NCBI RefSeq assembly: GCF_002995495.1
Contig: NZ_PVZV01000011.1
Location: forward strand, 186,001 to 250,000
DNA length: 64,000 nucleotides
Direction: 5' to 3'
Source of the DNA: Actinocorallia populi
Lineage (GTDB): Bacteria; Actinomycetota; Actinomycetes; Streptosporangiales; Streptosporangiaceae
Of this stretch, positions 10,173 through 62,265 are shown piece by piece; position 1 is the stretch's first letter, and the number at the start of each line of letters is the position of its first letter. The notes beneath the pieces were generated by a model, which did no database searches, was not told where the DNA came from, and saw nothing but the letters and a program-made list of their open reading frames with translations. Position numbers and translations under genes: made by a program.

Positions 10173-10233
10173 ATTCAGGGTGATGTCCCGGGCAGGGCGG
10201 TTTATTCCCGATCCGCGGTGACCGGGCCGCCGT

Positions 10234-11553
10234 TCACTCGCGGTCGATGTCGCGGTAGGTCTGCTCGCCGGGCTTGGCCGGCTGGACCTCGCCGTTGATG
10301 ACCACCTGGCAGATCTGCCCGTCGCTGACCGTCAGGTCCATCGGGACGGAGTTGTACCGGGCGATCTGGCCGTCGCCGACCCGCACGTGGTTGACGGTGC
10401 CGGCCGCGCCGCCCTTCTGGCCGATCACCGTGGTGAGCTCGCACTCGCCGCCCTCGGCCTTGACCACCACCACGTCCGTGGCCGCGCTGAGCGGGGTGGA
10501 GCCCTCGGACGAGGGGGAGGCGGCGGGCTGCTCGCCTTCGCCTCCGCCCAGCAGCACGAACAGCACCGCGAGCACAGCCAGGACCCCGACGACCGGAAGC
10601 CCGATCACCAGGTACGGGCGCAGCCGGTGCGTCGAGCTCTGCCGGGCGCGGTGCGCTCCGCTGCGCCGGCTGGGCAGGCCCGAGGAGGACAGCACGCTGG
10701 CGCCCTCCGGAGGGGTGGAGGAGGCCGCGCTGCGCTTGGGCATCGCGGCGCGCTCCAGGCGCTCGGCCAGCCTGGAGTGGCTGAGCCGCCGCTTGGGGTT
10801 GCGCTGCAGCAGCCCGTTGATGATGGGGCCGAGGTCCCCGGCCCGCTGCGAGGTCGCCGGGTCCTCGGTGAGGACCGCCGACAACGTCGCCATCACGTTC
10901 TCGTGGTCGAACGGGGGGCGGCCCTCGACCGCGCAGTAGAGCGTCGCGCCGAGCGACCACAGGTCGGATTCGGGCGTCGCCTTCTCCCCGCGCGCCACCT
11001 CGGGCGCGACGTAGGCGGGCGAGCCCACGAACGTGCCGACCTTGGTGATGGTGGACGAGCCGTTGGTGACGGCGAGCCCGAAGTCGGTCAGCACCACCCG
11101 CCCGGGGGCCAGCAGCACGTTGCTCGGCTTGATGTCGCGGTGCAGGACCCCGGCCGTGTGCGCCTCCTCGAGGGCGTCCACCAGCTGGCGGCCGAGAGCC
11201 GCCGCGTCCTCCGGACGCAGCGGCCCCTGCTCCTTGATGTGCTGCTCGAGGGTCGGCGCCTCGATGAGCTCCATCACGATCCAGGGCCGTGCGTGCTCCT
11301 GGACGACGTCGTAGACCTCGATGATCGACTTGTGCCGGACGCGGGCGGGTGCGCGGGCCTCACGCAACGTGCGGCGGTAGAACACGACGCGGTCGTTCTC
11401 GTCCAGTTCGGCGGGGAACCGGATCTCCTTGATCGCGACATCGCGTTCCAGCAGCTCGTCGTGGGCGCGCCACACCGTGCCCATCGCCCCGTGTCCGAGT
11501 GCATGGAGCAGGCGGTAACGCTTCGCCAGAACGAAGTGCTCCGTCTGAGTCAT
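10234..11553 (-). CDS. Membrane Ser/Thr protein kinase (PknB-like)
   Basis: 439 residues. Cytoplasmic Hanks-type kinase domain at about 10-270: glycine loop GHGAMGTVW, Lys 42 in [13 protein letters not shown] with D140, TDFGL with D157, and APEVARGE. A 40-residue juxtamembrane linker, one transmembrane helix at about 314-336 and an extracellular domain of about 100 residues of unknown fold follow. The extracellular part has no PASTA repeats, so the signal is not muropeptide by analogy with PknB. It sits between two fumarase genes; regulation of central metabolism is possible but is only inference from position. Its promoter region is unusually AT-rich. Confidence 0.93.
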
Positions 11554-29414: not shown

Positions 29415-29751
29415 TTCCGCTTCGTCCGTACGGGGCGTCCACGACGGCCGCGGGGACCCATGACGGATCCGTCATGGGTCGCTGTCGCGGGGTCTCTCCG
29501 GAGGCGTGTGGAAAACGCTGGATTCGGGGGGTGTGTCCGAGGAATCGGCGGGCATGGGGGAAGGCGTTGGTGTTCTGGTGTGTCTGGTGAGGAATGGGGG
29601 AGTGCGTGTGGGTAGTGCGACATGCACACCCGCGCGCCGAGACTGGGCATCTTGGTGAGTCACTGGAACAATTGCCTCTCGTGGCTACGCTTGATGCCAC
29701 ATGACGGAACGGGCGCGCCGGCGAGGGTGAGGCGCATAGGCGGAGGCGTTG
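29415..29751 (+). promoter_or_regulatory. Control region of the transfer-like operon
   Basis: About 340 bp with no credible gene. It contains the 26-bp palindrome at 29455-29480, a G-rich tract of GGGGGTGTG/GGGGGAAGG type around 29520-29590, and a modestly AT-richer stretch around 29660-29690 where a promoter is most likely. GGCGGAGG precedes the first start codon. Confidence 0.5.
29455..29480. promoter_or_regulatory. 26-bp perfect palindrome
   Basis: Half-site GACCCATGACGGA is followed immediately by its exact reverse complement, with no spacer, centred at GGATCC. No T-tract follows and it is already 40 bp past a strong terminator, so a binding site for a dimeric regulator is likelier than a terminator. 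It lies about 270 bp upstream of the first transfer-like gene. Confidence 0.6.
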
Positions 29752-30693
29752 ATGGCTCGCAGGACGGCTGTGGACGAAGGTCCTGATGCGCTCGACGAGC
29801 CGTGGGACGAGGAGCCGAAGGCTCCCAAGAAGCGGTGGAGCGGAGGCGGCGGCCGCTGGTGGATCTGGGTCGGCCGGGTGCTGCTGTGGGCGTTCGTGCT
29901 GGTCGTCGTGGTGAACGGGATCCGCGCGCCGTTCGAGCGCTTCACCGAGCAGCCGCCCGCGACCAGCGGCCAGAGCGACGACAGAGAGCCGCGGTTCCCG
30001 CAGACGCAGGCGTCGGCGTACGCGCTGCAGTTCGCGCACGTGTACCTCAACTACGACGAGAACTCCGCCGGCGGGCGCCAGGAGGAGCTGGCCCGCTTCC
30101 TGCCCGAAGGCGCCAACGCGCAGCTCGGCTGGAACGGTCTGGGGCAGCTGTCGGCGCAGCACATCGAGGTGCTGTCGGTCGACGTGAAGGATGCCAACAA
30201 CGCGCTCGTCAACATCGCGGCCAAGGCCGGTTCGCGCTGGGTCACGCTGGCGGTGCCCGTCTACACCAGGGACGGCGCGCTCGTCATCGCGGGCCGGCCC
30301 GCACTGCTCGAGGCGCCGAAGAAGGCGCAGCTGCCGCAGGAGGCCGGCGGGGAGCGCGACCAGGAGCTGGAGGCCCGGCTGCAGACCGACCTGGCCGGCT
30401 TCTTCCAGGCGTACGGCAACAGCGACGCGGTGAATCTGCAACGCTTCACCGAAGGTGGCGGGATCACCGGCCTCGGGGCCGCGGTGAACTTCGGCGAGAT
30501 CCGCGAGGTGAACGCCCCTCCAGGTGACTCCGACGAACGCACGGTCACCGCGACCGTGATGTGGAAGGTCCCCCCGACCCAGCCTCGCGGGACGGAAGGT
30601 CAGCTCGAGCAGACCTACGAACTCGTCGTGGTGAAGAAGAGCGACCAGTGGAATGTTCGCTCGATCCGCGGCGCTGTGCGGGCCGGGTCCTAG
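29752..30693 (+). CDS. TcpC/ConB-like conjugal transfer protein (VirB8 analog)
   Basis: About 313 residues. A short cytoplasmic charged segment, one membrane helix (about 36-57, WIWVGRVLLWAFVLVVVVNGI), then an extracellular part of two NTF2-like halves: AYALQFAHVYLNYDENS at about 90 and TDLAGFFQAYGNSDAVNLQRFTEGG at about 215. This is the layout of TcpC/ConB, the VirB8-like scaffold of Gram-positive type IV secretion. First gene of the operon; the next gene starts 13 bp after its stop. ATG 29752 and TTG 29749 are both possible starts with GGAGG upstream. Confidence 0.85.
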   Translation: MARRTAVDEGPDALDEPWDEEPKAPKKRWSGGGGRWWIWVGRVLLWAFVLVVVVNGIRAPFERFTEQPPATSGQSDDREPRFPQTQASAYALQFAHVYLNYDENSAGGRQEELARFLPEGANAQLGWNGLGQLSAQHIEVLSVDVKDANNALVNIAAKAGSRWVTLAVPVYTRDGALVIAGRPALLEAPKKAQLPQEAGGERDQELEARLQTDLAGFFQAYGNSDAVNLQRFTEGGGITGLGAAVNFGEIREVNAPPGDSDERTVTATVMWKVPPTQPRGTEGQLEQTYELVVVKKSDQWNVRSIRGAVRAGS

Positions 30694-30706
30694 AAATGAG
30701 GTTGTA

Positions 30707-30991
30707 GTGCTGTTCCACCATCTGGCGGCGGTTCTTCCGATGGAGACGCTGGCGGCGCCCGGCGACCTGAACACCGAGGACCTGGCGGCCTGGCTGCGGA
30801 ACCTCTTCGGTCCGCTGTTCCTGGTCATCGTCTCGATCGTCGCGCTGTTCTTCCTCTTCACCCGGGAGATCACCCGGTTCGCACAGTTCGTCCTGCTCGC
30901 CATCGGCATCGGGATCATCTTCTACGTACCCGACATCATCGAGGTGACGGCCACGTCCATTGCCAGAGCGCTGGGCATTGACCTGGACTGA
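30707..30991 (+). CDS. Small two-TM protein at the ConC position
   Basis: 94 residues from GTG 30707 (GAGG 6 bases upstream). Two hydrophobic helices, about 32-50 (LFLVIVSIVALFFLF) and 56-74 (FAQFVLLAIGIGIIFYV), then an amphipathic tail. By position between the TcpC-like and TcpE-like genes, and by size and topology, it corresponds to ConC of ICEBs1, an essential small membrane component; a pilin/VirB2-like part is the alternative. Sequence identity could not be tested. The next gene begins 25 bp downstream. Confidence 0.75.
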   Translation: MLFHHLAAVLPMETLAAPGDLNTEDLAAWLRNLFGPLFLVIVSIVALFFLFTREITRFAQFVLLAIGIGIIFYVPDIIEVTATSIARALGIDLD

Positions 30992-31015
30992 GGTCGACGG
31001 CGAGGGGAGCGGCGC

Positions 31016-34000
31016 ATGGATCTGCCTACGTACACCAATGTCTGGCGCATCGAGAAACGGCTGTACAAGCTGTACGACCTGCGGCTGCCGATGCCGCTTC
31101 CGCTGGTCACCATCGGTGTGTACGCGGGTTCCTTCCTGCCTTGGATCGTTCTCCTGCAGTTCTTCGGCGTGCCGTTCGGCGCGCCGTGGCACGTGCTCTA
31201 CCTCGTGCCGCCCGGGGTCGTCGCCTGGCTGGCGACCCGTCCCGTCATCGAGGGCAAGCGGCTCAACGAGCTGCTGCAGTCGCAGGCGCGCTACCTCAGC
31301 GAGCCGCGCACCTGGTGCCGCCTGACGCCGATCCGCGAACCCCGCGACGTCGTGGTCGTCGCCCGCGTGTGGCGCTCGCCCCGCCAGCTGACCCCCTCGC
31401 TCGACGCGCTCACCGAGGTGCCGCTGCCCGCACGCGCGCAGCAGGCGACGGCCGCGCCGACCCCCGCCACCGCTGCCGCCCCGCAGCCGCTGTCGGAGTA
31501 CGCCGCCGAGTACGCGGCCGCCCACCAGGGCGCCGTCGCCCGCATGCAGGCCCAGATGAACGCCCAGCACGTGCCCGCCCCCGAACCGGCCGAACGCATG
31601 CCCGCCCCGGACTCCACCGCCCTCGACACGCCGTCCGAGCCGCTGCGCACCGAGTCCGTGGCCCCCGACGCCGTCCCGCTGGACGAGCCGATTCCCGTGG
31701 CGGAGGCCGAGCCCGTCGGCACCGGGGCCGCCGAGACCGGGACGGACCAGACGCCCGCCCCGCCGCCTCCGCCCGAGGCTCCCGCGCGCCGCGCCCTCAT
31801 CTCCGGCATCCGCCGTCCCGGCGAGGAGGTCGAGTACTGGCGTCCCGCCGACGTCGACGAGACGGCCGGCGGCCCCCCCACCCACGCGGTCCGCACCACC
31901 TTCGACGCCGCCGCCATCCGCCAGGCCGCCGCGGCGGCCCGCGCCGAGGAGGCCGCCCGCACGCAGGCGGCGGCCCGCGCACGGGAAGCGGCCCGCCGCC
32001 GTCCCCGCCCGCAGGCCCCGACTCCCGCGGAGAGCCTCCCTCCGGCCGAGCAGTCCGCCCGCCTCCGCGACTCCCTCCCCGCGCGCGAGGCCACCCGAGC
32101 CGAGGACACCGCGCGCATCCAGGACGCGCTCCACGAACACCAGGCCGAACACGCCTGGGACGCCGCCCGGAACACGCCCCGCCGCGACGAGCCGGCCCCC
32201 GCGGCGGAACCCGCCGTGGTGGAACCCGCGATGGCGGAATCCGCTGAGGCGGGGACCGTCGTGGAGAGCACCGGAACGGAAGGCGTCCAGGGCGAGGACA
32301 TGTCCGTCAAGGACACTGTTTCCGCCGATGAGCCGGCCCTCGCCGTGGAGGACGCGGGAACAGAAGATGCAGTTCGGGGCGAGGATGGCGCTCCGGTGGG
32401 CGAGGATGCGTCCGTGATGGATGCTGGTCGTGCCCGGGAAGCGGCGCGTGCCGTGGAGAGCGGTGGAGCGGAGGAGGCCACGCGGTCGCGGGAGGCCGTC
32501 TTCGCGGAGGACGACGTTCGCGCTCAGGAGGCGCCGCGCGCCGCGGAGGCCGCTGAAGAGCCGGACACCGCGCGGACGCAGGACGTCGTGCGCGTGGAGG
32601 AGGCCGAGCACGCCGGGCACGAGGCCCGGGACGAGGAGGCCCGGGTCGGCGACGTGGCGTCCGGACGCCGTTCGGCGGACGAGGACGCCTGGGAGGTCAT
32701 GCCGGTCGCCGGAGCGGACGAGCCGACCCGGCTGCAGGAGGCCGCCCGCGTCGAGGATGCCGTGCGCGCCGAGGAGGCCGCACAGGCGGAGGAAGACATT
32801 CGCGTCGGGCTGCGGGAGAGCGCCCGCGTGGAGGATGCCGTGCGCGCTGAAGAGGCCGCACGGACGGAGGAGGACGCCCGCGCTGGTTTGCGGGAGGCCG
32901 CCCGTGTCGAGGAGGTCGTGCGCGCTGAAGAGGCCGCACGGGCCGAGGAGGACGTCCGCGCCGGGCTGCGGGAGGCCGCACGGGCCGAAGAGGCGGCGCG
33001 CGCCGAGGCAGAGGTACGGGCCGAGGAGGCCGGGCGGCTGAGGGACGCCGCCCGGATCGAGGACGTCGTGCGCGCCGAGGAGGCCGCGCGCGTCGGGGAC
33101 GCCGACCGGTCCGGTGAAGCCGTGCCCGCGCGGGACGCGCACGACCGCGCGGCCGGCCGGCCGGAGGGCACCGCCGTACGGTCCGAGGACGTGCGGTCGC
33201 CTTCGGAGGAAGGGGACATGACGCACGCGGACGAGCAGGCACCGGGCGTTCCTCCCAGGTCGTCCGCGCCCGTTCCGGAGGGGGACGAGGCCGTTGTGCA
33301 CGAGGAGCGCGCGCCTGCCATGGCCGAAGAGGAGAACGCGGAACGGCCTGCGACGGGACGACCGCCCGCGACCGTCCCCGACATCCCGCAGATCCCGGGA
33401 TCGTTCGGAGCGGCCGCCGCGCCGCGCCGCGAACACGAGGCCGAGCCCCGGCAGGAGCCGGAGAGGCCCGCCGCGCAGGTGAGCCCGCCCGACTCGGTGG
33501 CCAACCGCACGGACCAGCAGATCTGGCCCCCCGTCCCGGCCCCCGGCGAACTCCCCCCCGCCCGCGTGTCGCCGCCCCCGGCGACCGCCCCGGACATCCC
33601 CGCCGTCGCACCCCGGGCCGCCGCCCAGCAGCCCCCGCGCACCCCGTCCGGACCCCAGCCCCCCGCAGCGCCCGAGACCCCGCAGACCCCCGCCCAGGAC
33701 GATGCGCGGCCGGTCCCGCAGAGCCCTGCGGCCTCCGAGGACCCGCGGACGCCCGGCCGGGAAACTCCGCGTGCCGTGCCGCAGAGCCCTGCGGCCTCTG
33801 GGGGTTCGCGGACGGGTCCGCAGGTGCCTGTTCAGGCTCCGCGAGCCGTACCGCAAAGGCCCCCGGCGCCCGATGACCCGCGAGCGGTCCCGCAGAGCCC
33901 TGCGGCACCCGAGAGCCCGCGGACGGCCCCGCAGGTGCCCGGCCGGGAAGGGCCGCGTGCCGTGCCGCAGAGCCCTGCGGCTTCTGAGGGTTCGCGGACG

Positions 34001-35809
34001 GTTCCGCAGGTGCCTGTTCAGGCTCCGCGTGCGGTGCCGCAGCGGCCCGCGGCGACCGGTGACCCGCGAGCGGTCCCGCAGAGCCCTGCGGCTTCCGAGG
34101 GTTCGCAGGGTGGGCCGCGGGTGCCGGTTCGGGATTCGCGGGAGGTGCCGCAGCGGCCTGCGGCGGCTGCGGGGCCGCGGGCGGGTTCGCAGGTGCCCGA
34201 CCGGGAGGTCGCGCGTGCCGTGCCGCAGAGCCCTGCGGAGTCCGAGGAGACGAGGACGGGGCCGCAGGTGCCGGTTCGGGATGATGCGCGTTCGGTCTCG
34301 CAGAGGTCCGCGGAGTCCGAGGGCTCGCAGGGTGGGCCGCGGGTGCCGGTTCGGGATTCGCGGGAGGTGCCGCAGCGGCCTGCGGCGGCCGGGGGGCCGC
34401 GGGCGGGGGCGCAGCGGCCTGCTGCTTTCGGGCGGGAGTCCGTGGAAGGCGGGGCGCAGGCTCCGCGGGGAGGTCGGCAGGGGTCGGCAGGGCAGGTCAG
34501 GCCGTTCGCGCCTCGGGGCGGGCGGGAGGAGGAGCCGTTCGCCGCGCAGGGGCCGGGGTCTGAGAGCACGCGGAGCGGGCCGCAGCCGGTCGTGGGGGCC
34601 GAGGGAGGGCCGGGAGCGCCTCCCGGGAGCTTCGGGCAGCGGGAGCAGCGGCCGCGGATCAGCGCGGTGGAAGGTGAGCAGGGGTTCGGGCGGGCGCCGG
34701 AACGGTCGGTGTGGCCGGGGGCGCCGAGCCGGGACCGGCTGCCGGAGCCGGTGCGGGGGCAGCCGGTGAAGCCGGAGCCGCCGCGGATCGTGCCTCCGCC
34801 GCCGCAGCGGCGGGACGAGCTGCCCCCGCCGCCGCGCGAGGTGCGTTCGGGGCCCGCCTCTCCGGTGCGGCCGCGGCCGATGCCGGTGCCGACGCCGCCG
34901 GTGGAGCGGGTGCAGGCGATCACGCCGCCGGACCAGCCGGTGGAGGAGCCGGGCGGGCTGCGCAGGCTGCTCAGCCGCGGCAACCCCGTCGACCAGGACT
35001 ACATCGAGCGGCTGCAGCGGCCCTTCCAGGGCACCCGCCACATCGTGGTGCTCGGCTGCACCGGCGGCGCCGGGCAGACCGTCACCGCGCTGATGATGGG
35101 CCACACCTTCGCGCAGTTCTGCGGGGAGCCGACCGTCGCGCTCGACGTCAACCCCGGGCACGGCGCGCTGGCCCGCCGCACCAAGATCGACACGCACGAG
35201 ACGCTCACGTCGCTCATCGCCAACGCCGAGCACATCGGCAGCCTGTCGGGCATCCGCCGCTACACCAGCCGGTCCAAGTCGGGCCTGGACGTGGTCGCGG
35301 CCGGCAAGACCCCGCTGCACGCGCTGGACGACCGGGACTACGCGCAGGCGGTCCGCACGCTCGACCGCTTCTACAGCGTCACCCTGCTGGACGCCGCCGC
35401 GAGCGTCGTCAGCCGGGTGCTGCCGCACGCCGACCAGATCGTCCTGGTCGCCCCGGCCAGCGCGGACGCCCCGCGCGCGGTGGCGATGACGTTCGAGTGG
35501 CTCGACAGCCACGGCTACCACGACCTGAGGCAGCGGGCCGTCACCGTCATCAACGGGGTGAGCCGCCGCAGCCACGGCGACGTGGAGCAGGCCGAGCAGG
35601 TGGCGCGCGGCCAGTGCCGCGCGCTGGTCCGCATCCCCTGGGACGACCACCTCAGCCTCGACCGATCGCCCCGCAACGAGCTCAAGGCCCTGCGGCCGCC
35701 GACGCGACGGGCCTACCTGGCCCTGAGCGCGGTCGTCGCGGGCGGCTTCTCGGTCCTGCCCGAGAGGTACCAGGACCCGTCCCCCTACCACCAGGAGCGC
35801 ACGCAGTGA
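31016..35809 (+). CDS. Giant TcpE-coiled-coil-PQ-repeat-MinD-like fusion protein
   Basis: 1597 residues. Residues 1-110: TcpE-like conjugal membrane domain (DLPTYTNVWRIEKRLYKLYD, two helices around 27-45 and 50-65). Residues 110-570: Ala/Pro/Glu-rich. Residues 577-702: 26-residue and 24-residue charged repeats, likely coiled coil. Residues 895-1140: Pro/Gln/Arg repeat. Residues about 1335-1590: MinD/ParA-like domain with VVLGCTGGAGQTVTALMMG at the P-loop, where the canonical lysine is Gln1354, and VALDVNPGHGALARR. Proline/alanine-rich N-terminus plus MinD domain recalls EspI of ESX-1 secretion. TcpE proteins alone are about 120 residues, so this is a fusion. The stop overlaps the VirB4-like start (GTGA). 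Confidence 0.85.
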   Translation: MDLPTYTNVWRIEKRLYKLYDLRLPMPLPLVTIGVYAGSFLPWIVLLQFFGVPFGAPWHVLYLVPPGVVAWLATRPVIEGKRLNELLQSQARYLSEPRTWCRLTPIREPRDVVVVARVWRSPRQLTPSLDALTEVPLPARAQQATAAPTPATAAAPQPLSEYAAEYAAAHQGAVARMQAQMNAQHVPAPEPAERMPAPDSTALDTPSEPLRTESVAPDAVPLDEPIPVAEAEPVGTGAAETGTDQTPAPPPPPEAPARRALISGIRRPGEEVEYWRPADVDETAGGPPTHAVRTTFDAAAIRQAAAAARAEEAARTQAAARAREAARRRPRPQAPTPAESLPPAEQSARLRDSLPAREATRAEDTARIQDALHEHQAEHAWDAARNTPRRDEPAPAAEPAVVEPAMAESAEAGTVVESTGTEGVQGEDMSVKDTVSADEPALAVEDAGTEDAVRGEDGAPVGEDASVMDAGRAREAARAVESGGAEEATRSREAVFAEDDVRAQEAPRAAEAAEEPDTARTQDVVRVEEAEHAGHEARDEEARVGDVASGRRSADEDAWEVMPVAGADEPTRLQEAARVEDAVRAEEAAQAEEDIRVGLRESARVEDAVRAEEAARTEEDARAGLREAARVEEVVRAEEAARAEEDVRAGLREAARAEEAARAEAEVRAEEAGRLRDAARIEDVVRAEEAARVGDADRSGEAVPARDAHDRAAGRPEGTAVRSEDVRSPSEEGDMTHADEQAPGVPPRSSAPVPEGDEAVVHEERAPAMAEEENAERPATGRPPATVPDIPQIPGSFGAAAAPRREHEAEPRQEPERPAAQVSPPDSVANRTDQQIWPPVPAPGELPPARVSPPPATAPDIPAVAPRAAAQQPPRTPSGPQPPAAPETPQTPAQDDARPVPQSPAASEDPRTPGRETPRAVPQSPAASGGSRTGPQVPVQAPRAVPQRPPAPDDPRAVPQSPAAPESPRTAPQVPGREGPRAVPQSPAASEGSRTVPQVPVQAPRAVPQRPAATGDPRAVPQSPAASEGSQGGPRVPVRDSREVPQRPAAAAGPRAGSQVPDREVARAVPQSPAESEETRTGPQVPVRDDARSVSQRSAESEGSQGGPRVPVRDSREVPQRPAAAGGPRAGAQRPAAFGRESVEGGAQAPRGGRQGSAGQVRPFAPRGGREEEPFAAQGPGSESTRSGPQPVVGAEGGPGAPPGSFGQREQRPRISAVEGEQGFGRAPERSVWPGAPSRDRLPEPVRGQPVKPEPPRIVPPPPQRRDELPPPPREVRSGPASPVRPRPMPVPTPPVERVQAITPPDQPVEEPGGLRRLLSRGNPVDQDYIERLQRPFQGTRHIVVLGCTGGAGQTVTALMMGHTFAQFCGEPTVALDVNPGHGALARRTKIDTHETLTSLIANAEHIGSLSGIRRYTSRSKSGLDVVAAGKTPLHALDDRDYAQAVRTLDRFYSVTLLDAAASVVSRVLPHADQIVLVAPASADAPRAVAMTFEWLDSHGYHDLRQRAVTVINGVSRRSHGDVEQAEQVARGQCRALVRIPWDDHLSLDRSPRNELKALRPPTRRAYLALSAVVAGGFSVLPERYQDPSPYHQERTQ
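32744..33121 (+). repeat. 78-bp tandem repeats coding a 26-residue coiled-coil unit
   Basis: Three 26-residue units of form ARVEDAVRAEEAA..EED.R.GLRE occupy 32744-32821, 32822-32899 and 32900-32977, then two 24-residue variants to 33121. Alternating Arg/Glu/Ala favours a long charged helix. Confidence 0.85.
33701..34440 (+). repeat. Pro/Gln/Arg repeat region (AVPQSPAAS, QVPVQAPRAVPQRP units)
   Basis: In-frame degenerate repeats with the core RAVPQSPA occurring six times (near 33716, 33778, 33890, 33965, 34075, 34220). The DNA of each core, CCGCAGAGCCCTGCGG, is itself an inverted repeat (CCGCAG/CTGCGG), so the region can form serial hairpins. Confidence 0.85.
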
Positions 35810-38256
35810 GTCGGACGAAGACGAGTCGGCTGGCCGTCCGGTACTTCGACGACCGCATCCTGCTCGGCGAGCACGCGGCCTGGGCGTACTTCCGGCTGCC
35901 GACGTTCAGCTACGAGTTCACCACCGCCGAGGAGCGCGAGGCGCTCGCGACCAACCTCACCATCGCGCTGGCCGCGATCCGCATGCAGGACGCCGAGGTC
36001 CACCTGCGGATCGCGCACCGGACGTACCCGGCGGCGGACTGGGCGCTGGCGCTGGACAGGACGAGCGACAACGGCCCCGGCTGGCGCGCGTACCTGGAGG
36101 AGATGTACTCGCACGTCTGGGTGAAGGACTTCTGGTCCAAGGAGGTCTACCTCGGCGTCCGGCTCGGCAGGCGCGGCGTGCAGCTGCAGGGTTCGCTCGG
36201 CACGCTGCTGGGCTTCTACCGCAGGTCCGAGCGCGGCCTGGGCCTGCAGGACGACGCGATCGACGAGCGCGAGATCAAGCGCTGGACGGAGCAGGCCGAG
36301 CGTCTCGGCAGAGCCCTGTCCGGCGGCGCCCTGCGCGCCCGCCACGCCACGTCCGTGGAGGTCGCGTGGCTGTTCCAGCACGCCGTGACGGGCGCGCTCG
36401 CCGACCCGCCGCCGTCGGCGGTCGCCAAGCGCCGCTGGGGCGCGGGCGAGATCGAGGCGCTGATCGAGGGGGCGATCCACAACGGCCGCTCCAACCTGCG
36501 CATGGAGCAGCCCGGCGGCGAGTCCTACACCGCGTACCTGTCGTTCGCGCGCTTCCCCGACCTGATGCCGTTCCCGGACGGCGAGCCGTGGCTGCACTAT
36601 GCCGACTCGTTGTCCTTCCCCGTCGAGATCAGCTCGCGCATGCGCCTCATCCCGCCCGCGCTGGCCTCCAAGGACGTCTCCCGCAAGCTCGCGCACGCCC
36701 GCGACATGGACGCCCACATCCGCGAGGCGGGCGCGGAGGCGCCGATCGCGCTGGCCGAGCAGATCGACGCGGCCCGGATGCTGGAGCACGGCATCACCAA
36801 GGAGCGCCTCCCGTTCGTCTACGGCTGGCACCGCCTCATCGTGACGGCGCACACCGAGGAGCTGCTCGTCCAGCGCGTCGACGCCGTCGTCGAGCACTAC
36901 CGCGACATCGGCATCGACGTCGTCAACTCCACCGGCGACCAGTTCTCGTTGTTCAGCGAGTCCCTGCCGGGCGACCGCCTCCGCCTGAACGCCTACGCCC
37001 AGCGCCAGCCGCTGCGCACGATCGCGGGCGGCATGCCGGTGGCGACCGTCGACCTCGGCGACCGCAGGGACGACACGGGCGGCGGCTGGACCGGCCCCTA
37101 CATCGGCGAGACGCTGGGCCGGGCGCGCAGCATCGTGCACTTCGACCCGCTGGTCGCGGCCGCGCGCAACCGCCCGACGGCCGTCGCGATCACCGGAGAG
37201 CCCGGCGGCGGTAAGACGACTCTGGCCCTCCTGCTCATCTACCAGATGGCACTGCGCGGGGTTACGATCGCGGCGATCGATCCCAAAGGTGACGCAGAGG
37301 CGCTCGTGGAGTTGCTGAAGGCACGCGGGCGCCGTGCCCGCATCCTGCCGCTCGGTTCGGCGGCGCCGGGCCTGCTCGACCCGTTCGGCTTCGACGACGA
37401 CCTCGCGGTCAAGAAGACGATGGCGACCGAGACGCTGCGGCTGCTGCTGCCGCGCATGTCCGAGGAGCGCGAGTCGGCGATGATCCAGGCGGTGGGCGCC
37501 GTCGCCAACGCCGACCGCCCGTCGCTGGGCAAGGTCGTGGACCACCTGGAGGCGGCCGAGGACGCTGCCTCCAGGAACCTCGGCGCGGTGCTGCGCTCGA
37601 TGTCGGAGATGCGTCTGGCGTCGCTGTGCTTCGACCCCTACGGCGGCGAGCGCATCGACACCGAGGGCTGGACGACCGTCTTCACCCTCGGCGGCCTGAC
37701 CCTGCCGGACGTGACGGTCAACCGCGAGGACTACTCCTACGAGCAGCGCCTGTCGGTCGCCCTGATGTACCTGGTCTCGCAGTTCGCGCGCCGGCTCATG
37801 CACGGGCTGGACCGCAGGCTGCCCAAGGCCATCTTCCTGGACGAGGCGTGGGCCATCACTTCGACACCCGAGGGCGCCAAACTGGTGCCGGAAGTATCGC
37901 GGATGGGCCGCTCCCGCAACACTGCGTTGATCTTGGTTTCGCAAAATGCGGGAGACCTGTTGAATGAGCAGGTGACGAACTGTCTCTCGTCGGTGTTCTC
38001 CTTCCGCTCCAGCGAGCGCGGGGAGGTCGGCAACGTCATGGCGTTGCTCGGTGTCGAGTCCTCGGAGGAGCACAAGGGCGTGCTGCGCAACCTCGGCAAC
38101 GGCGAGTGCATCTTCCGGGATCTGGACGGCCGGGCTGGCCGGATCGGCGTGGACCTCGTCTCCGAGGAGCTCCTGCGCTGGCTGGACACCAACCCGACGC
38201 GCCAGAAGCCGGTTCTGTCCAAGACGGGGGCTGACCCAGAGGAGAGCGCCGGATGA
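35806..38256 (+). CDS. VirB4/ConE-like conjugation ATPase
   Basis: 816 residues from GTG 35806, overlapping the previous stop by 4 nt. The N-terminal half (about 1-400) is the VirB4 membrane-associated region without strong TM helices. The C-terminal RecA-like domain has Walker A GEPGGGKTT (K470), GVTIAAIDPKGDAEAL, Walker B KAIFLDEAW (D679, E680), the RSRNTALILVSQNA motif, and a finger near VFSFRSSERGE. VirB4 ATPases power assembly and substrate transfer in type IV secretion. As no separate coupling protein is encoded, it could serve both roles. It overlaps the next start by ATGA. Corresponds to SCO6880-like/TcpF/ConE proteins. Confidence 0.92.
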   Translation: MSRTKTSRLAVRYFDDRILLGEHAAWAYFRLPTFSYEFTTAEEREALATNLTIALAAIRMQDAEVHLRIAHRTYPAADWALALDRTSDNGPGWRAYLEEMYSHVWVKDFWSKEVYLGVRLGRRGVQLQGSLGTLLGFYRRSERGLGLQDDAIDEREIKRWTEQAERLGRALSGGALRARHATSVEVAWLFQHAVTGALADPPPSAVAKRRWGAGEIEALIEGAIHNGRSNLRMEQPGGESYTAYLSFARFPDLMPFPDGEPWLHYADSLSFPVEISSRMRLIPPALASKDVSRKLAHARDMDAHIREAGAEAPIALAEQIDAARMLEHGITKERLPFVYGWHRLIVTAHTEELLVQRVDAVVEHYRDIGIDVVNSTGDQFSLFSESLPGDRLRLNAYAQRQPLRTIAGGMPVATVDLGDRRDDTGGGWTGPYIGETLGRARSIVHFDPLVAAARNRPTAVAITGEPGGGKTTLALLLIYQMALRGVTIAAIDPKGDAEALVELLKARGRRARILPLGSAAPGLLDPFGFDDDLAVKKTMATETLRLLLPRMSEERESAMIQAVGAVANADRPSLGKVVDHLEAAEDAASRNLGAVLRSMSEMRLASLCFDPYGGERIDTEGWTTVFTLGGLTLPDVTVNREDYSYEQRLSVALMYLVSQFARRLMHGLDRRLPKAIFLDEAWAITSTPEGAKLVPEVSRMGRSRNTALILVSQNAGDLLNEQVTNCLSSVFSFRSSERGEVGNVMALLGVESSEEHKGVLRNLGNGECIFRDLDGRAGRIGVDLVSEELLRWLDTNPTRQKPVLSKTGADPEESAG

Positions 38257-40346
38257 GACTCCGACGTGCCGTCGGCCGTGTCCGCAGTGGAGGGGGACGC
38301 CGGCGATCTGTCGTGCTGCTCCTGTGCATGGCGGTGTTCCTGCTCATGACGCCGGCCGCCGCGGCCGCGCCGGACCCGCCGTGGAGCACCAACCCCAACG
38401 ACGCCTGCGCGCCCGCCGCCGCCCCCGCCCCCGAGGCGTACGGCTCGGGCACCGACGGCCTGATCAAGCCGCCGGACTACCCGAGCGAGCAGCTGAAGAC
38501 CACCGCCGCGGACCAGCTCACCTACTACGACCGCTACGGCACCGCGGGCCAGACCTGGTACGCCGTCGACATGGGCTGCGGCGACGCCATGGCCATGATC
38601 GGCAACTCCGTCTCCAACACCCTGTTCACCCTCGTCCGCGCCATCGACCGCACCACGATCAGCGTCTACCAGGCGGCGGCGTCGGAGTCGCTGCTGGGCT
38701 GGCTGAAGGAGACGGTCGACGAGGTCATCACCGGCATCGGCGAGACGTTCAACGCCCGCTACTGGACGCCGGTCGTCATCCTGGGCGCGATCACCCTGGC
38801 CTGGTGGGGCCTGGTCCGCAAGCGCACGTCCAAGGTCGCCGAGGGCACCATCTGGATGGTCGCGGCGATGGTCGGCCTGATCTGGCTGATCGCCCGCCCC
38901 GGCGACTTCACCACGCTGGGCACCACGGTCTCCAACGCCACCAGTGCGGCGTTCAACGCGGCGCTGCCGCAGAGCGGCGGGGGCACCACGTGCGTCCCCA
39001 CGCCCGAGGGCAGGCCGACGCTGGACGACTCCGAGCTGGACGCCACCACCCGCAACGCCAACGGCCTGTGGGTGGCGCTGGTGTGCAAGCCGTGGCTGAT
39101 GGGCGAGTTCGGCACCACCGACCCCGAGGCCGAGATCGTCAAGGAGCACGCCGACCGGCTGCTGTACGCCCAGGGCGTCGACCTCACCGAGACGTACGGC
39201 GCGGAGAAGCCCGACATGGGCGCCAAGGCCGACGCCTACCAGCAGGTCGCCAAGAGCATCAAGGAGGACTACCCGGGCGTCTACCCGCTCTTCCAGGGCA
39301 AGCAGTGGACGTCGCGGCTGGCCGTCGCGTTCGGCGCGCTGTTCGCCGCGCTGGTCGCGGGTCTGCTCATCCTGGTCATCTCGGTGACCCTGATCATCGT
39401 GAAGATCGCGTTCCTGCTGCTGCTGGTGGCCGGACCGATCTTCCTGGGCATCGGCATCCACCCGGGGATAGGCCGGGTGATCGCGGTCAGATGGCTGGAG
39501 CTCCTGCTGTCGATGCTGCTCAAACAGGCGGCGCTGATAGGCGTGCTCGCCCTGTTGTTGTGGGCCTACGGGGTGATCCTCGGGGAGGGGCTGCCCTGGG
39601 GCCTGCAGATCATGCTCATCGCGCTGGTGACGGGCGCGGCGTTCATCTACCGCAAACCGTTCCAGCACCTGTTCGCCTCCGTGGGCTACTCGGCGGTCTC
39701 CCGCTCCCGCTCGGAGAGCGAGCTGGAGAAGTCCATCGCGACGATGCGCAAGAGCACCCTCGGCGTCGCGCAGGCCGCCGCCCCGGGCGCCGCGCTGTCC
39801 CGGCTGGTCCGCCGCGAGGACGGCGTGCCCGCCCTGTCGGCCGTCGGCTCCGACGACCCCTCCGCCAAGTCCGCCTCGGGCGTGCTGGGCACCAAGGCAC
39901 GCGCGGGCGACTCGGCCGGCTCCACCCGCGTCGCCGACACCGTGCCCCCGCTGAACCTGCCCAGCCGCCGGAACGGCGGCGGAAGCCCCGGTGCCTCCGC
40001 CGGCGGGGGCACCGCCTCCACGGGCCGCGGCCGCACCTCCGCGGGCGCCGGCGGCCGTCCGGCGTCCGGCCCCCGGCCGCTGGCCCGCAAGGGCACGGGC
40101 GGCACGAAGCCCGCCCCGGCGGGCGAGCGCCCCGTGTCCAGGCCCGCGGTCTCCCGGCCGAAGGCCGAGGGCAGCGGGGGCGGCGGCAGGAGCGGCGGAG
40201 GCGTCACGGGCGCGTCGGTGCCCCGCCAGCGGGAGACCCCGGCGCCCGCCGCGCGCGACCAGGCGCCGCCGCTGTGGGCCAAGCGGGTCGCCGACGCCGA
40301 GCCCCCCACCCCGTTCTGGCTGAGGCCGGCCGACTCAGACGACTGA
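38253..40346 (+). CDS. VirB6/TrbL/ConG-like polytopic channel protein
   Basis: 697 residues. Cleavable signal (about 1-42, VVLLLCMAVFLLMTPAAAAA), an extracellular domain with cysteines (C50, C109 and others), then membrane helices near 165-185, 190-210, 350-400, 425-445 and 450-470, including LLLLVAGPIFLGIGIHPG, typical of TrbL/VirB6. The last 200 residues are a disordered Gly/Ser/Pro/Arg tail facing the cytoplasm. VirB6-type proteins form the inner-membrane conduit of type IV secretion. Follows VirB4 exactly as ConG follows ConE in ICEBs1. Five bp separate it from the next gene. Confidence 0.87.
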   Translation: MRLRRAVGRVRSGGGRRRSVVLLLCMAVFLLMTPAAAAAPDPPWSTNPNDACAPAAAPAPEAYGSGTDGLIKPPDYPSEQLKTTAADQLTYYDRYGTAGQTWYAVDMGCGDAMAMIGNSVSNTLFTLVRAIDRTTISVYQAAASESLLGWLKETVDEVITGIGETFNARYWTPVVILGAITLAWWGLVRKRTSKVAEGTIWMVAAMVGLIWLIARPGDFTTLGTTVSNATSAAFNAALPQSGGGTTCVPTPEGRPTLDDSELDATTRNANGLWVALVCKPWLMGEFGTTDPEAEIVKEHADRLLYAQGVDLTETYGAEKPDMGAKADAYQQVAKSIKEDYPGVYPLFQGKQWTSRLAVAFGALFAALVAGLLILVISVTLIIVKIAFLLLLVAGPIFLGIGIHPGIGRVIAVRWLELLLSMLLKQAALIGVLALLLWAYGVILGEGLPWGLQIMLIALVTGAAFIYRKPFQHLFASVGYSAVSRSRSESELEKSIATMRKSTLGVAQAAAPGAALSRLVRREDGVPALSAVGSDDPSAKSASGVLGTKARAGDSAGSTRVADTVPPLNLPSRRNGGGSPGASAGGGTASTGRGRTSAGAGGRPASGPRPLARKGTGGTKPAPAGERPVSRPAVSRPKAEGSGGGGRSGGGVTGASVPRQRETPAPAARDQAPPLWAKRVADAEPPTPFWLRPADSDD

Positions 40347-40350
40347 GGCC

Positions 40351-40986
40351 ATGAACCTGAACGACGACCGCCAGCGCCGCGTGCTCTTCGCGGGGATGGC
40401 CGCGGTGCTGGTCCTGCTGGGCCTGTGGTTGTGGTGGCCCAGGCCCGACACCGAGCCGGTGGAGCGGGACGGCGCCCCGGTGGCGAGCGCCCCGCCCGCC
40501 GCTCCCGCCACCCCGCCGCCGGGCATCGACGAGCTCGTCGACCCGGAGAGCTTCGACGTCTACCGGCTGCTGCCCTTCGGCAGGGAGGACTTCGCGACGG
40601 CGGCCACCACCGCCCAGCAGTTCGTCTCCCGTTACGGGACGTACCGGTACGACGAGACCCCGCAGACCTATCTGGACAGGCTCCGCCCGCTGGTGAACGA
40701 TCAGGTCCATGACGACCTGCTGGCCGCCGCGTCCTCCCCGGGCATCCTGGAGCAGCGCAAGGCCGACCGGACCGTCGCGGAGGGCAGCGCCTCGCTGAAC
40801 TCCATCCGCACGATCGGCGGCACCTCGATCACCTTCGTGGTCACCGGCATCCAGCAGGTCACCGAGGCCGGCACCACCGGCCAGGACAGCGAGCAGTGGG
40901 CGGTGACGGTGCAGAACACCGGAGGTTCCTGGAAGGTGTACTCCTTCGGCCCGGCCGACGTCGGGCAGGACGGTGAGTCCGGATGA
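40351..40986 (+). CDS. Single-TM accessory protein, VirB8/NTF2-like
   Basis: 211 residues. One membrane helix at about 11-27 (VLFAGMAAVLVLLGLWLWW), a Pro-rich linker (45-60), then an extracellular alpha+beta region: FATAATTAQQFVSRYGTYRYDETPQTYLDRL followed by strands TSITFVVTGIQQVTE and EQWAVTVQNTGGSWKVYSFGP, which resembles the NTF2-like fold of VirB8 proteins. It would be the second such protein of the operon. No relative can be named with certainty; the analogous slot in ICEBs1 is an extra small gene. Overlaps the next start by ATGA. Confidence 0.7.
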   Translation: MNLNDDRQRRVLFAGMAAVLVLLGLWLWWPRPDTEPVERDGAPVASAPPAAPATPPPGIDELVDPESFDVYRLLPFGREDFATAATTAQQFVSRYGTYRYDETPQTYLDRLRPLVNDQVHDDLLAAASSPGILEQRKADRTVAEGSASLNSIRTIGGTSITFVVTGIQQVTEAGTTGQDSEQWAVTVQNTGGSWKVYSFGPADVGQDGESG

Positions 40987-42032
40987 GGCGGCGCCTGCTG
41001 GCGGTGGCCGCGGTCAGCGTGTTCGCCGCGCTCTTCTTCGCCCTCCTGGTCGTCCCCACGTTCTTCGGCGCCTCCCAGTTCCTCTTCGGCGGGGGAGGCG
41101 GCCGCGGCAACTGCGTCGACACCTCCGATGCCGCCGAGCAGCCCAGCGAGGCCGAGGCCGCCAAGGGCATCCCCGAGAACTACCTCGCCCTCTACAAGAA
41201 GGCGGGCGAGGAGTACGGCATCCCGTGGAACGTCCTGGCCGGGGTCGGCCGGGTCGAGACGATCCACGGCACCCTGGAGGCCGAGGGCGTCCTCAGCGGC
41301 GAGAACTACGCCGGCGCGGGCGGCCCGATGCAGTTCCTGGAGCCGACGTGGAAGGCCTTCGCCGTCGACGGCGACGGGGACGGCGCGAAGAACCGCTACG
41401 ACCCGGCCGACGCGATCCCCGCCGCGGCCCGCTACCTCAAGCACAACAAGGCGCCGGAGAAGATCCGCACGGCGCTGTTCCAGTACAACCACTCCTGGGA
41501 CTACGTCGACGACGTGCTGGACTGGGCGACCAAGTACGCGGCCGGCGAGTTCCGGGTGATCCAGGCGGCCGGGCTGCCCGACTGCAAGGACACCGAGGGC
41601 CTGCCCGCCTACGCCGACGGCGTCGTCGCCCGCATCATCGACTTCGCGCTGGCCCAGCGCGGCAAGCCCTACATCTGGGGCGGCGTCGGCCCCGACGGCT
41701 ACGACTGCTCCGGGCTCATGCAGATGGCCTACAAGCACGCCGGCCTGGACATCCCCCGCGTCACCTTCGACCAGTGGCCGTTCGGCGCCAAGGTCGACGA
41801 CGGCTCGGAGCAGCCCGGCGACCTCGTCTTCTTCAACTCCGGTCCGGGCACCGCCCCCGGCCGGCCCGGCCACGTCGGCATGGTCATCGGCGAGAACAAG
41901 ATGATCGTCGCCCGCTGCACCTTCTGCCGTCCGGCCATCGCCGTCATGCCCTACCGCATCGGCACCCTGATCGGCTTCACCCGCCCCATGGAGAACCCCC
42001 AGGTGGCGGACCAGCTGGAGAAGCTCGGCTGA
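40983..42032 (+). CDS. CwlT-like lytic transglycosylase plus NlpC/P60 endopeptidase (VirB1 analog)
   Basis: 349 residues. Membrane helix at about 5-27, an SLT-type domain at about 60-190 (catalytic Glu92 in VGRVETIHG, then AGGPMQFLEPTWKAF and ALFQYNHSWDYV), and an NlpC/P60 domain at about 215-340 with Cys242 in YDCSGLMQM and His297 in GHVGMVIGE. This two-enzyme layout is that of CwlT of ICEBs1 and Tn916, which opens the peptidoglycan for the conjugation channel. Last gene of the operon, closed by a strong terminator. Its presence argues that the apparatus crosses the wall. Confidence 0.92.
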   Translation: MRRRLLAVAAVSVFAALFFALLVVPTFFGASQFLFGGGGGRGNCVDTSDAAEQPSEAEAAKGIPENYLALYKKAGEEYGIPWNVLAGVGRVETIHGTLEAEGVLSGENYAGAGGPMQFLEPTWKAFAVDGDGDGAKNRYDPADAIPAAARYLKHNKAPEKIRTALFQYNHSWDYVDDVLDWATKYAAGEFRVIQAAGLPDCKDTEGLPAYADGVVARIIDFALAQRGKPYIWGGVGPDGYDCSGLMQMAYKHAGLDIPRVTFDQWPFGAKVDDGSEQPGDLVFFNSGPGTAPGRPGHVGMVIGENKMIVARCTFCRPAIAVMPYRIGTLIGFTRPMENPQVADQLEKLG

Positions 42033-59924: not shown

Positions 59925-60362
59925 TCACGGCTGGGGAGAGAGCCGGTTGATGACGCCCAGGCGGTTCATGGCGTTCATCTGGGCGATGGTCGCGATCAGT
60001 GCGGCGAGCAGTTCCTCCGGGTAGTGCGCGGCGGCCTCCTCCCAGACGGCGTCGGAGACGCCGTGGCCTCCGGGCAGGAGGGTGCCTTCCTCGGCGAGGG
60101 CCAGGGCGGCGCGTTCGGCCGGGGTGTAGAAGGGCGACTCGCGCCAGGCGGCGACGCCCCAGACGCGCCGGTCGTCCTCGCCGAGCTTCTTCAGGTCGGC
60201 GCTGTGGGAGTCCACGCAGTAGGCGCAGCCGTTGAGCTGGCTGATGCGCAGGTACAGCAGGTCGACGGTGGCGTCGGGCAGCCCGGACGAGCGGATGTAC
60301 TTCTCGAGCGAGCCGAACGCCCGGTAGACGTCGGGGGCGGTGCTCCGCAGATCGATCCTCAT
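59925..60362 (-). CDS. Carboxymuconolactone decarboxylase/AhpD-like protein
   Basis: 145 residues. AhpD-like helical fold with the redox motif NGCAYCVDSHS (C46, C49, H53), so a peroxidase-type activity is possible rather than decarboxylation. Start overlaps the sigma factor stop (ATGA), proving cotranscription. This pairing of CMD protein with an ECF41-type sigma factor is a well-known genomic association. Confidence 0.93.
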   Translation of the reverse strand: MRIDLRSTAPDVYRAFGSLEKYIRSSGLPDATVDLLYLRISQLNGCAYCVDSHSADLKKLGEDDRRVWGVAAWRESPFYTPAERAALALAEEGTLLPGGHGVSDAVWEEAAAHYPEELLAALIATIAQMNAMNRLGVINRLSPQP

Positions 60363-61210
60363 GGGAGTTTCCTCAGCTTCTCAGGATTCAACTGGATGTC
60401 GATCTCGCGGATCCGGCCGTCGAGGACGGTGAAGCCGAAGACGCCGGTGACCGTGCCGTCCTGCACGCGCAGCAGCCCGGGAGCCCCGTTGACGGCCGCC
60501 GGGACGAACACCGCCGCCGAGGCGAACTTCGTCCGCACCCCGACGAGGAACCGGGCGACCCGTCCGGCCCCGACCACGGGGTTGCGCGCCGCGCGCACCC
60601 GCCCGCCGCCGTCGGTGCGCAGGACGACGTCCGGGTCGAGGAGGCCGAGCAGCCTCCCCAGGTCGGCGCCCGAGGCGGCCTCGGCGAACAGCGCGACCGC
60701 CCGCCGGTGCTCCGCCTCGTCCACGTCGAACCGGGGAGCGCGGGCGCGGACGTGCCGCCGCGCCCGCGAGGCCAGCTGGCGGCAGGCCTCGGGCGTGCGC
60801 CCGACGGCCTTCGCCACCTCGGTGAAGGCCAGCCCGAACACGTCGTGCAGCACGAACACGGTGCGTTCGGCCGGGCTCAGCGACTCCAGGACGACGTGCA
60901 GCGCCAGGCTCATCGACTCGTCCAGCGTCACCCGGTCGGCCGGATCGGGGACGGCTACGTCGGGTTCCGGCAACCAGGGACCGACGTATCGCTCCCTGCG
61001 GTGCCGCGCCGACTTCAGCACGTCGAGGGCGAGCCGCGACACCGTCACCACCAGCCAGCCCTCGACGTCCCCGTCCACCCCGGCCCGCCACATCCGCAGC
61101 CACGCCTCCTGGACGACGTCCTCGGCCTCGGCCAGGTCGCCGAGCACCCCGTAGGCCACCCGGACGAGCCGGGGCCGCAACGCGTCGAAGCCGGTCACGA
61201 GATCGTTCAT
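60359..61210 (-). CDS. ECF41-type RNA polymerase sigma factor (SigJ-like)
   Basis: 283 residues from ATG 61210. Sigma region 2 (LVRVAYGVLGDLAEAEDVVQEAWLRMW) and region 4 (SPAERTVFVLHDVFGLAFTEVAKAVGRTPEACRQLASRARRHV spans it) are followed by a C-terminal SnoaL-like domain (about 175-283) with DGGGRVRAARNPVVGAGRVARFL. That extension, instead of an anti-sigma factor, controls ECF41 activity. Translationally coupled to its CMD partner. Autoregulated promoters upstream are expected but I could not pick them out. Confidence 0.93.
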   Translation of the reverse strand: MNDLVTGFDALRPRLVRVAYGVLGDLAEAEDVVQEAWLRMWRAGVDGDVEGWLVVTVSRLALDVLKSARHRRERYVGPWLPEPDVAVPDPADRVTLDESMSLALHVVLESLSPAERTVFVLHDVFGLAFTEVAKAVGRTPEACRQLASRARRHVRARAPRFDVDEAEHRRAVALFAEAASGADLGRLLGLLDPDVVLRTDGGGRVRAARNPVVGAGRVARFLVGVRTKFASAAVFVPAAVNGAPGLLRVQDGTVTGVFGFTVLDGRIREIDIQLNPEKLRKLP

Positions 61211-61251
61211 ACCCCGAGCACGAGACGGGCCGCCGGAGTGTGACATCGGGA

Positions 61252-62265
61252 TCAGCCGTTGGTCAGGGAGACCGCCGCCTTGTCGCCGGGAGCGGTGCCG
61301 ACCGCCCACAGGGCGCCGGGCAGGGGGTCGACGGCGTTGATCGTGTCGACGGGCAGGGACGCGGACCGCCACGCGGTGCCGTCGAAGCGGTGGACGGTGT
61401 TCTCGTCGACGCGCCACAGGGCGCCTTCGGCGTCGAGCAGGTACCTGGTCGCCAGGACGCTCGTGGGGATTTCGGGAGCCGGCGGAAGGGCGGTGGTGCC
61501 GCCGTCGGACACGCGTTTCACGGTCCGGTCGGGGGAGGAGTAGTAGTACAGGGCGTCATCGTCGACGGCCAGGAGGTGGCCCTCGGAGGCTCCTTCCGCC
61601 TCGACCCAGCCGTTGCCGTCCCGGCGGAGCGGCTTGTGGCCCACCAGGTAGACCTCGTTCGAGGCGGTCACATGGACGTCATGGACGAAGTCGTCGGGCA
61701 CGGCGTGGACGGCCCATTCGCCAGCCTTCCAGTGGAACACGCACCTGCCGCCCCAGGAGGCCCAGGCTTCGTCGGTTCCCGCGGCGGTCAGCTGGAGCTT
61801 CGCGCGCGAAGCGGTACTCGGGCAGTCCCCCGCGGGCAGAGCGATCTCGTTCCACTTCTTCCCGTCCCACCGGAAGATGCGGGCCTGGCCGTTCTTCATT
61901 CCAGAGACCCACACGTTGCCCGAGGCGGACGCGTCGAGGTCCGCCAGTTCGTAATTCCACGTGACGGGAGGGTTCTTCGTCTCCCAGAAGGTTCCGTTCC
62001 AGCGCTTGAGGGTCGTGTTGGAGTTGCATGTCGTCCCGGCGCCGAGGAAAGGAATCGACCAGTCGTAGCAGGTCTGCCCCGCGTAACCTCCGACCCACAC
62101 TTCCTCGGGTCCCAGGGCGGCGACGTGGGAGAGCCCCGAGTCGGGCACCATCTGCGGTGCTCTGGTGACACGCCACGGTCTTTCTTCGGCGTACGCGGCC
62201 GGAGCGAGCATTCCGACGGCCAAGGCGGCCGCCGCGACGATGAGTGTTCTTCTCATGGCGGTCAT
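61252..62265 (-). CDS. Secreted protein of unknown function, propeller-like repeats
   Basis: 337 residues from ATG 62265 (GGGAGAA ribosome site). Signal peptide of about 26 residues (TLIVAAAALAVGMLAPAAYA). The mature part has repeated short segments of type EVWVGGYAG, NVWVSGMKNG, EAWASWGG, EVYLVGHK, ALWRVDEN, ALWAVGTAP, each with aromatic Trp and Gly, suggesting a beta propeller. Four cysteines could form disulfides. No enzyme motif seen. Confidence 0.78.
   Translation of the reverse strand: MTAMRRTLIVAAAALAVGMLAPAAYAEERPWRVTRAPQMVPDSGLSHVAALGPEEVWVGGYAGQTCYDWSIPFLGAGTTCNSNTTLKRWNGTFWETKNPPVTWNYELADLDASASGNVWVSGMKNGQARIFRWDGKKWNEIALPAGDCPSTASRAKLQLTAAGTDEAWASWGGRCVFHWKAGEWAVHAVPDDFVHDVHVTASNEVYLVGHKPLRRDGNGWVEAEGASEGHLLAVDDDALYYYSSPDRTVKRVSDGGTTALPPAPEIPTSVLATRYLLDAEGALWRVDENTVHRFDGTAWRSASLPVDTINAVDPLPGALWAVGTAPGDKAAVSLTNG

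Follow-up and report, generated by a model that had tools for sequence, protein, structure and literature searches.

A type IV channel operon with a TcpE-MinD fusion, fixed in the chromosomes of Actinocorallia populi and its family

The stretch of DNA analysed here, called the window throughout, is 64,000 nucleotides (nt) long and comes from Actinocorallia populi (assembly GCF_002995495.1, contig NZ_PVZV01000011.1, positions 186,001-250,000, forward strand). It carries an operon for a type IV secretion system (T4SS) channel of the monoderm type, with all genes on the forward (+) strand. The first gene encodes TcpC (29752-30693; PF12642, E-value 2e-19) and is followed, after a 13-nt gap, by a gene whose translation is a protein of 94 amino acids (aa) with two transmembrane segments, the two-TM protein (30707-30991). 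A gap of 24 nt separates this from the gene of a 1597-aa protein (31016-35809) that begins with a TcpE domain (PF12648, E-value 4.9e-21). The VirB4 ATPase (35806-38256, GTG start; AAA_10, PF12846, E-value 2.1e-63) and VirB6/TrbL (38253-40346; PF04610, E-value 4.5e-9) come next, each gene overlapping the previous one by 4 nt. The last two genes, the first of them set off by a 4-nt gap and the second overlapping it by 4 nt, encode a VirB8-like protein (40351-40986) and a CwlT-like wall hydrolase with SLT and NlpC/P60 domains (40983-42032; NlpC/P60 6.7e-20, SLT_2 1.6e-11). An original prediction, made from the sequence by a model, had described seven same-strand genes with 4-nt overlaps or small gaps; the coordinates hold, the largest gap being 24 nt, and the parts it named (TcpC, two-TM, TcpE, VirB4, VirB6, VirB8 and CwlT) are borne out by Pfam or, for the VirB8-like protein, by fold search and, for the two-TM protein, by translation. 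By Pfam and fold search VirB3/TcpE, VirB6, VirB8 and VirB1-like subunits are all present at the locus. The gene caller used a simple GC-position score and loses genes lying under antisense frames.

Relatives of the operon were read in a first set of 36 loci from 35 genera (one genus occurring twice, some loci cut by contig ends) and in a scan of 305 named relatives, of which the best 80 were analysed. These 80 are mostly Actinomadura, with Actinocorallia, Spirillospora, Thermomonospora, Actinoallomurus, Microtetraspora, Nonomuraea, Planobispora, Marinactinospora and others; the nearest among them is Actinocorallia sp. API 0066, with a VirB4 91% identical to that of the window. Alignments reach 118 rows, among which some genomes occur twice (L086 and L132, for example).

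Motor and envelope subunits alike are conserved among these relatives. The VirB4 Walker motifs GEPGGGKT and FLDEA are intact in 118/118 rows, and the Cys and His motifs of the CwlT NlpC/P60 domain in 102/102; a rough motif for the SLT glutamate is found in 65 of the 102. The VirB8-like protein has no match in Pfam. Its AlphaFold model (predicted local distance difference test score, pLDDT, 87; predicted template modelling score, pTM, 0.67) retrieves plastid ARC6 at rank 1 in Foldseek (E-value 6.6e-5) and, below it, mostly VirB8-type folds, namely DotI, PrgL, CagV and Agrobacterium VirB8, with query template modelling scores of 0.38-0.49. The two-TM protein sits at what we take to be the ConC/TcpD position; its resemblance to TrbC/VirB2 (E-value 0.018) lies below the Pfam cut-off. 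The protein is strongly conserved: its motif is located between the TcpC and TcpE genes in 83/85 relatives examined, and tblastn matches it in 85/117 loci, including 34/36 of the first set, many of the other loci being truncated.

The TcpE gene runs into a MinD/ParA-fold domain, a feature that the original prediction did not see. TcpE occupies residues 5-102 and leads into a low-complexity linker of ∼1200 residues (31361-34936) that contains tandem repeats, has a high content of Ala, Pro, Arg and Glu and is predicted from its composition to be disordered; across the first set this linker varies from 367 to 1706 aa. The C-terminal domain of ∼290 aa that follows (34937-35806) is modelled by AlphaFold with a pLDDT of 85 and a pTM of 0.86, and its top Foldseek ranks are FlhG, ParA, FleN and MinD, with a weak profile match to VpsO and McdA. 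TcpE and the MinD-fold domain share one frame in 34/35 testable loci of the first set and in 49/51 testable named loci, and overall in 83/86, a count in which some genomes appear twice. The three loci that depart from this arrangement are L061, L138 and L157; L062 and L063 end at a contig boundary, and 29 of the 80 named loci do not have both domains present.

The P-loop of the fused domain is degenerate. The deviant Walker A motif KGGxGK[TS] occurs in 0/118 domain rows and both P-loop lysines are gone; in 118/118 rows the canonical P-loop is replaced by GC[TAS]G[GS]AGQ[TS], which reads GCTGGAGQT in the window. Two aspartates are invariant across these rows, and we take them to be the switch residues. 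The median ratio of nonsynonymous to synonymous substitution rates is 0.084 for the MinD domain, 0.126 for VirB4, 0.144 for TcpE, 0.153 for YchF, 0.215 for CwlT and 0.297 for VirB8, as calculated from non-independent pairs at 85-99.5% identity with synonymous divergence of 0.1-0.9, a filter that is biased to low values. The MinD-fold domain is thus under strong purifying selection despite the loss of its P-loop lysines.

VirB4 is found in 148/150 genomes of the order, with a strong match in 147, that of A. populi included. Full-length copies are 77-88% identical, a few are fragmented, and several of the double matches seen in 11 genomes are pieces of one gene. The remaining 3/150 genomes are all the members of one separate family, one of them with only a weak VirB4 match. 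At the level of the class, the strong matches are confined to 28 genomes of the family; 19 other genomes have matches of at most 33% identity, and 249/296 have none. Four of these distant class loci (L094-L097) were considered as relatives of the same system and set aside, their VirB4 being 26-28% identical and their loci giving no match to the MinD domain.

TcpC, TcpE, MinD, VirB4, VirB6, VirB8 and CwlT are colinear in 32/36 loci of the first set; of the other four, two stop short at contig ends, L072 contains a frame of VirB6 size that gives no match, and L059 is rearranged. In the window the operon is neighboured by the genes for LytB/IspH, RmuC, YchF, NUDIX and TypA/BipA. The place after ychF, remarked on in the original prediction, recurs when locus positions are compared across the first set, YchF lying upstream in 29/36 loci and NUDIX downstream in 20/36. 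No conserved cargo accompanies the operon: the largest gene cluster between YchF and TcpC covers 4/73 loci and that between CwlT and NUDIX 27/82, so there is no constant partner.

Mean pairwise identity falls from VirB4 (85.6%, 118 rows) through TcpE (75.6%, 86 rows), the MinD domain (68.4%, 118 rows), CwlT (57.7%, 102 rows), VirB6 (56.3%, 112 rows) and TcpC (49.3%, 86 rows) to VirB8 (43.9%, 102 rows). Over the same 70 rows VirB4 has a mean identity of 85.5% against 82.9% for YchF, and over 28 first-set rows plus the window 84.2% against 81.1%. VirB4 and YchF distances correlate with r = 0.91 (70 rows), a value reached by 0/500 permutations and comparable to that of housekeeping neighbours against YchF (r 0.86 and 0.89). 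The VirB4 motor is constrained like a housekeeping GTPase, and the envelope-facing parts drift. The distribution in this family is not patchy: VirB4 gives a strong match in 147/150 genomes of the order, mostly in one place, with a divergence that follows YchF. The channel is a fixed chromosomal machine in the GTDB-type family that includes Actinomadura, Actinocorallia, Nonomuraea, Microtetraspora and Marinactinospora.

The machinery that would hand DNA to such a channel is missing from its surroundings. Pfam names no relaxase, coupling protein or integrase among the genes called in the 64 kb of the window, in a scan of all called frames but two (one of 63 aa and one antisense to VirB4), and no relaxase or other DNA-binding family exceeds its cut-off in the seven operon proteins. 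The window holds no tRNA and no Rfam match. Direct repeats of at least 18 nt between 24000 and 50000 include none that resembles an attachment (att) site, almost all lying within coding repeats; two weak repeat families flank the operon on both sides, D12 (71%, in ychF and a SEC-C gene) and D11/D10, which reach into the operon. The Pfam scan and the repeat search agree with the original prediction, which saw no DNA-processing genes, integrase or direct-repeat ends at the locus.

Elsewhere in the A. populi genome there is one TraG-like, one MOBP-type and one TrwC-type gene, all on other contigs (C3, C4 and C16, respectively). The TraG-type gene on C3 belongs to a separate element (L107, 549-10463) with its own SLT-NlpC/P60 wall hydrolase, a small protein bearing the P-loop-like motif GGAGCTT and a P-loop protein with faint similarity to TraG/VirB4. 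Across 101 genomes of the order, TraG-D_C is present in 63 (absent from 38), and of the two relaxase families covered by the genome-wide search PF03432 is present in 18 (absent from 83) and PF08751 in 29 (absent from 72). Relaxase and coupling families are patchy across the order, and none of those tested is universal. The original prediction had also allowed that the operon might be part of an element whose other half lies elsewhere; the three genes on other contigs speak for this, and the patchiness of all three families weakens it.

A version of the channel with a DNA-processing module does occur on plasmids. A VirB4 match was obtained from 757 plasmid records and surpasses 60% identity in four; three of these are Nocardiopsis plasmids, two of which were read (NZ_CP099838.1 and NZ_CP080600.1). 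The fourth record, NZ_LT559118.1, is filed as a plasmid in PLSDB; at 11.85 Mb it is evidently the chromosome of a Nonomuraea, and it has the fused layout. Both Nocardiopsis plasmids encode TcpC, VirB4, a VirB8-like protein, SLT, TrbL and a two-TM protein, together with a separate ParA. Their VirB4 is 72-75% and their TcpE 57-61% identical to those of the window, and their two-TM proteins are 80-89% identical to those of several chromosomal relatives. Unlike in the window, TcpE and MinD are separate proteins, MinD has the canonical KGGVGKT, and a MobF relaxase and a T4SS coupling protein are present by annotation, confirmed by Pfam in the first plasmid (TrwC 9.8e-46, T4SS-DNA_transf 1.2e-15). 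PLSDB types both plasmids as non-mobilizable despite their MobF, coupling protein and T4SS genes. The channel therefore exists in two forms, on plasmids with a DNA module and unfused parts and in the chromosomal core with neither; of the copies read, the chromosomal ones alone show the fusion and the loss of the P-loop.

One account of this pairing has the chromosomal operon first, with the Nocardiopsis plasmids capturing the channel and gaining a relaxase, a coupling protein and a catalytic-type MinD. We put it at slightly less than even odds. Plasmid VirB4, TcpC, TcpE and two-TM proteins are closer to one chromosomal clade than to the window, and the best stand-alone MinD in 100/101 genomes of the order shares 45-53% identity with the plasmid MinD, against ∼29-39% for the fused domain. 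In both VirB4 and concatenated trees the plasmids branch next to the chromosomal clade that contains L066. By approximately unbiased tests, however, chromosomal monophyly (p 0.706) is not rejected, and neither is this clade with the plasmids excluded (p 0.263). The plasmid MinD was also considered as the direct ancestor of the fused domain, a candidacy weakened by its nearest relatives being stand-alone MinD proteins; in the A. populi genome its best match is the fusion protein itself. A stand-alone MinD match of such strength is seen in 100/101 order genomes, that of A. populi being the exception. The surroundings were viewed at four, where the gene encodes a MinD-like ATPase with KGGVGKT and a long N-terminal extension (L211, 7623-10583; L212, 8195-10600; L213, 3245-5713; L214, 9283-11082).

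Upstream of the operon, at 29664-29687 on the + strand, lies an element with the core GGAA[CG]AAT that is conserved among relatives and, judged from sequence, may act as a promoter. The core is found in 68/84 upstream regions of relatives (34/84 in strict form) and, over 1.75 Mb of these loci, at only 7 other positions on that strand (strict form 0); most of the 16/84 loci without it belong to the clade near the plasmids. With at most two mismatches, the pattern of the window occurs once in its own 8.25 Mb genome and a reversed-pattern control 14 times, so that the result shows the absence of a similar site elsewhere in the genome and no family of sites. A gene for an extracytoplasmic function-type sigma factor (Sigma70_r2, r4_2) lies at 60359-61417, ∼18 kb from the operon.

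These observations are most consistent with vertical inheritance of a monoderm type IV channel, of the mating pair formation FA (MPF-FA) or ICEBs1-like kind, that is kept for a function of the cell, a reading to which we give a probability of roughly 0.6 and in which the function is inferred. The original prediction of a wall-crossing T4SS channel that lacks DNA-processing genes and is retained in the core chromosome is supported by the distribution, the tracking of YchF and the scan of the window. Since conjugation genes, which plasmids ordinarily use to pass DNA from one bacterium to another, are here fixed in the chromosomes of a soil actinobacterial family without DNA-handling parts and have acquired a new fused subunit, another job for the cell is probable. 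No description of this operon was recognised in the open-access literature searched.

How such a channel might work can be sketched from the known roles of these families: VirB4, TcpE and VirB6 would form a membrane platform, TcpC and VirB8 would occupy the wall zone, and CwlT would open the peptidoglycan. VirB4 would power the channel, for which CwlT would make the opening in the wall. Because the MinD-fold domain is without its P-loop lysines, the tethered domain is likelier to be a docking, gating or positioning module acting on VirB4 or on the substrate than a canonical ATPase. As none of the tested coupling proteins occurs throughout the order, the receptor for the substrate may be VirB4 or the MinD-fold domain, and the channel would serve the host cell without VirD4, most likely in protein export or in action at growing or dividing mycelial walls; a protein substrate, or action at wall or septum, is favoured by the lack of a relaxase. 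In its most specific form, that of a family-wide, coupling-protein-independent export machine of mycelial actinobacteria, assembled from the components of a conjugative plasmid, in which the catalytically altered MinD-fold domain tethered to VirB3 gates or positions the channel, in morphogenesis or secretion, the proposal is tentative and is put at clearly worse than even odds.

Several points weigh against this interpretation. The 80 named loci are best matches only and are skewed to Actinomadura. At L059 (4838-14935) the fusion gene is separated from VirB4 by unrelated genes, and VirB6, VirB8 and CwlT were not found after VirB4. A degenerate P-loop is no proof of lost nucleotide binding, BcsQ being a MinD/ParA-fold protein with a degenerate P-loop. 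The patchiness of relaxases is judged from PF03432 and PF08751. In the trees the plasmid copies fall close to one of the chromosomal clades, compatible with descent in either direction. Finally, since TraG-like, MOBP-like and TrwC-like genes lie on other contigs of the same genome, they may provide help in trans.

That last point leads to the alternative of a chromosomal conjugation channel used in trans by mobilisable elements that bring their own relaxase and coupling protein. The plasmid versions of the same channel, with their MobF and coupling protein, also fit this idea. Nevertheless, it is unlikely: constraint like that of YchF in 147/150 genomes would not be expected of a channel kept solely for other elements, the potential partners are absent from many genomes (TraG-D_C from 38/101, PF03432 from 83, PF08751 from 72), and, of the copies read, only chromosomal ones combine the fusion with an altered P-loop.

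Less probable still is a machine for the exchange or release of chromosomal DNA, in which FtsK or another host translocase replaces the coupling protein. Homology links the channel proteins to conjugation parts, and FtsK_SpoIIIE matches fall in three frames of the A. populi genome, one FtsK-like and two EccC-like as named by size and domain number. Noncanonical transfer of chromosomal DNA is known from other actinobacteria (PMC12857230). Against this stand the lack of a universal relaxase or coupling family among those tested and the seven proteins themselves, in which no relaxase or DNA-binding family is above cut-off. An ordinary or decaying integrative and conjugative element inserted after ychF, suggested by a gene order like that of ICEBs1 (the comparison drawn in the original prediction), is very improbable for an operon that is family-wide, mostly colinear, strongly constrained and in step with YchF, in a window with no named integrase or relaxase and no att-like repeat pair.

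The natural pair formed by a family-fixed channel without a DNA module and a close plasmid channel with one shows what changes when conjugation parts are repurposed, and the TcpE-MinD fusion offers a concrete handle on the control of a channel without VirD4. The con operon of ICEBs1 has in common with the window TcpC, a small transmembrane protein, TcpE, VirB4, VirB6 and CwlT in the same order, as a monoderm MPF-FA T4SS. Unlike ICEBs1, the window has no adjoining relaxase, coupling protein or integrase, and it adds a VirB8-fold protein, the TcpE-MinD fusion and a family-wide, vertical inheritance.

BcsQ, like VirC1, is a MinD/ParA-fold protein tied to a secretion machine, but both are separate proteins with no fusion to VirB3/TcpE; for VirC1 the machine is a T4SS (PMC10241942). 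The Patescibacteria T4SS is likewise of monoderm type and is reported to have an essential cellular role; it differs in having a VirD4-like protein and an array of VirB2-like pilins (PMC12857230).

A further system for comparison is the cmdABCDEF cluster (SCO4126-4131) of Streptomyces coelicolor, like the operon of the window a core cluster with a VirB4-like ATPase akin to plasmid transfer genes (PMC2782261). Orthology is not supported: a probable CmdB-like frame of 478 aa (L128, 7408-8352, presumed Streptomyces) was found by the VirB4 profile alone (E-value 4e-11), and tblastn of the operon proteins against 17 kb around it gave nothing better than an E-value of 0.7. A TraG-like gene lies downstream of this frame, at 8748-10358. 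The cmd cluster acts in sporulation, with effects on septation, chromosome segregation and aerial growth, and an SLP2-derived plasmid was transferred as before when the cluster was deleted (PMC2782261). By analogy, and short of proof, it is the nearest precedent for a role other than transfer.

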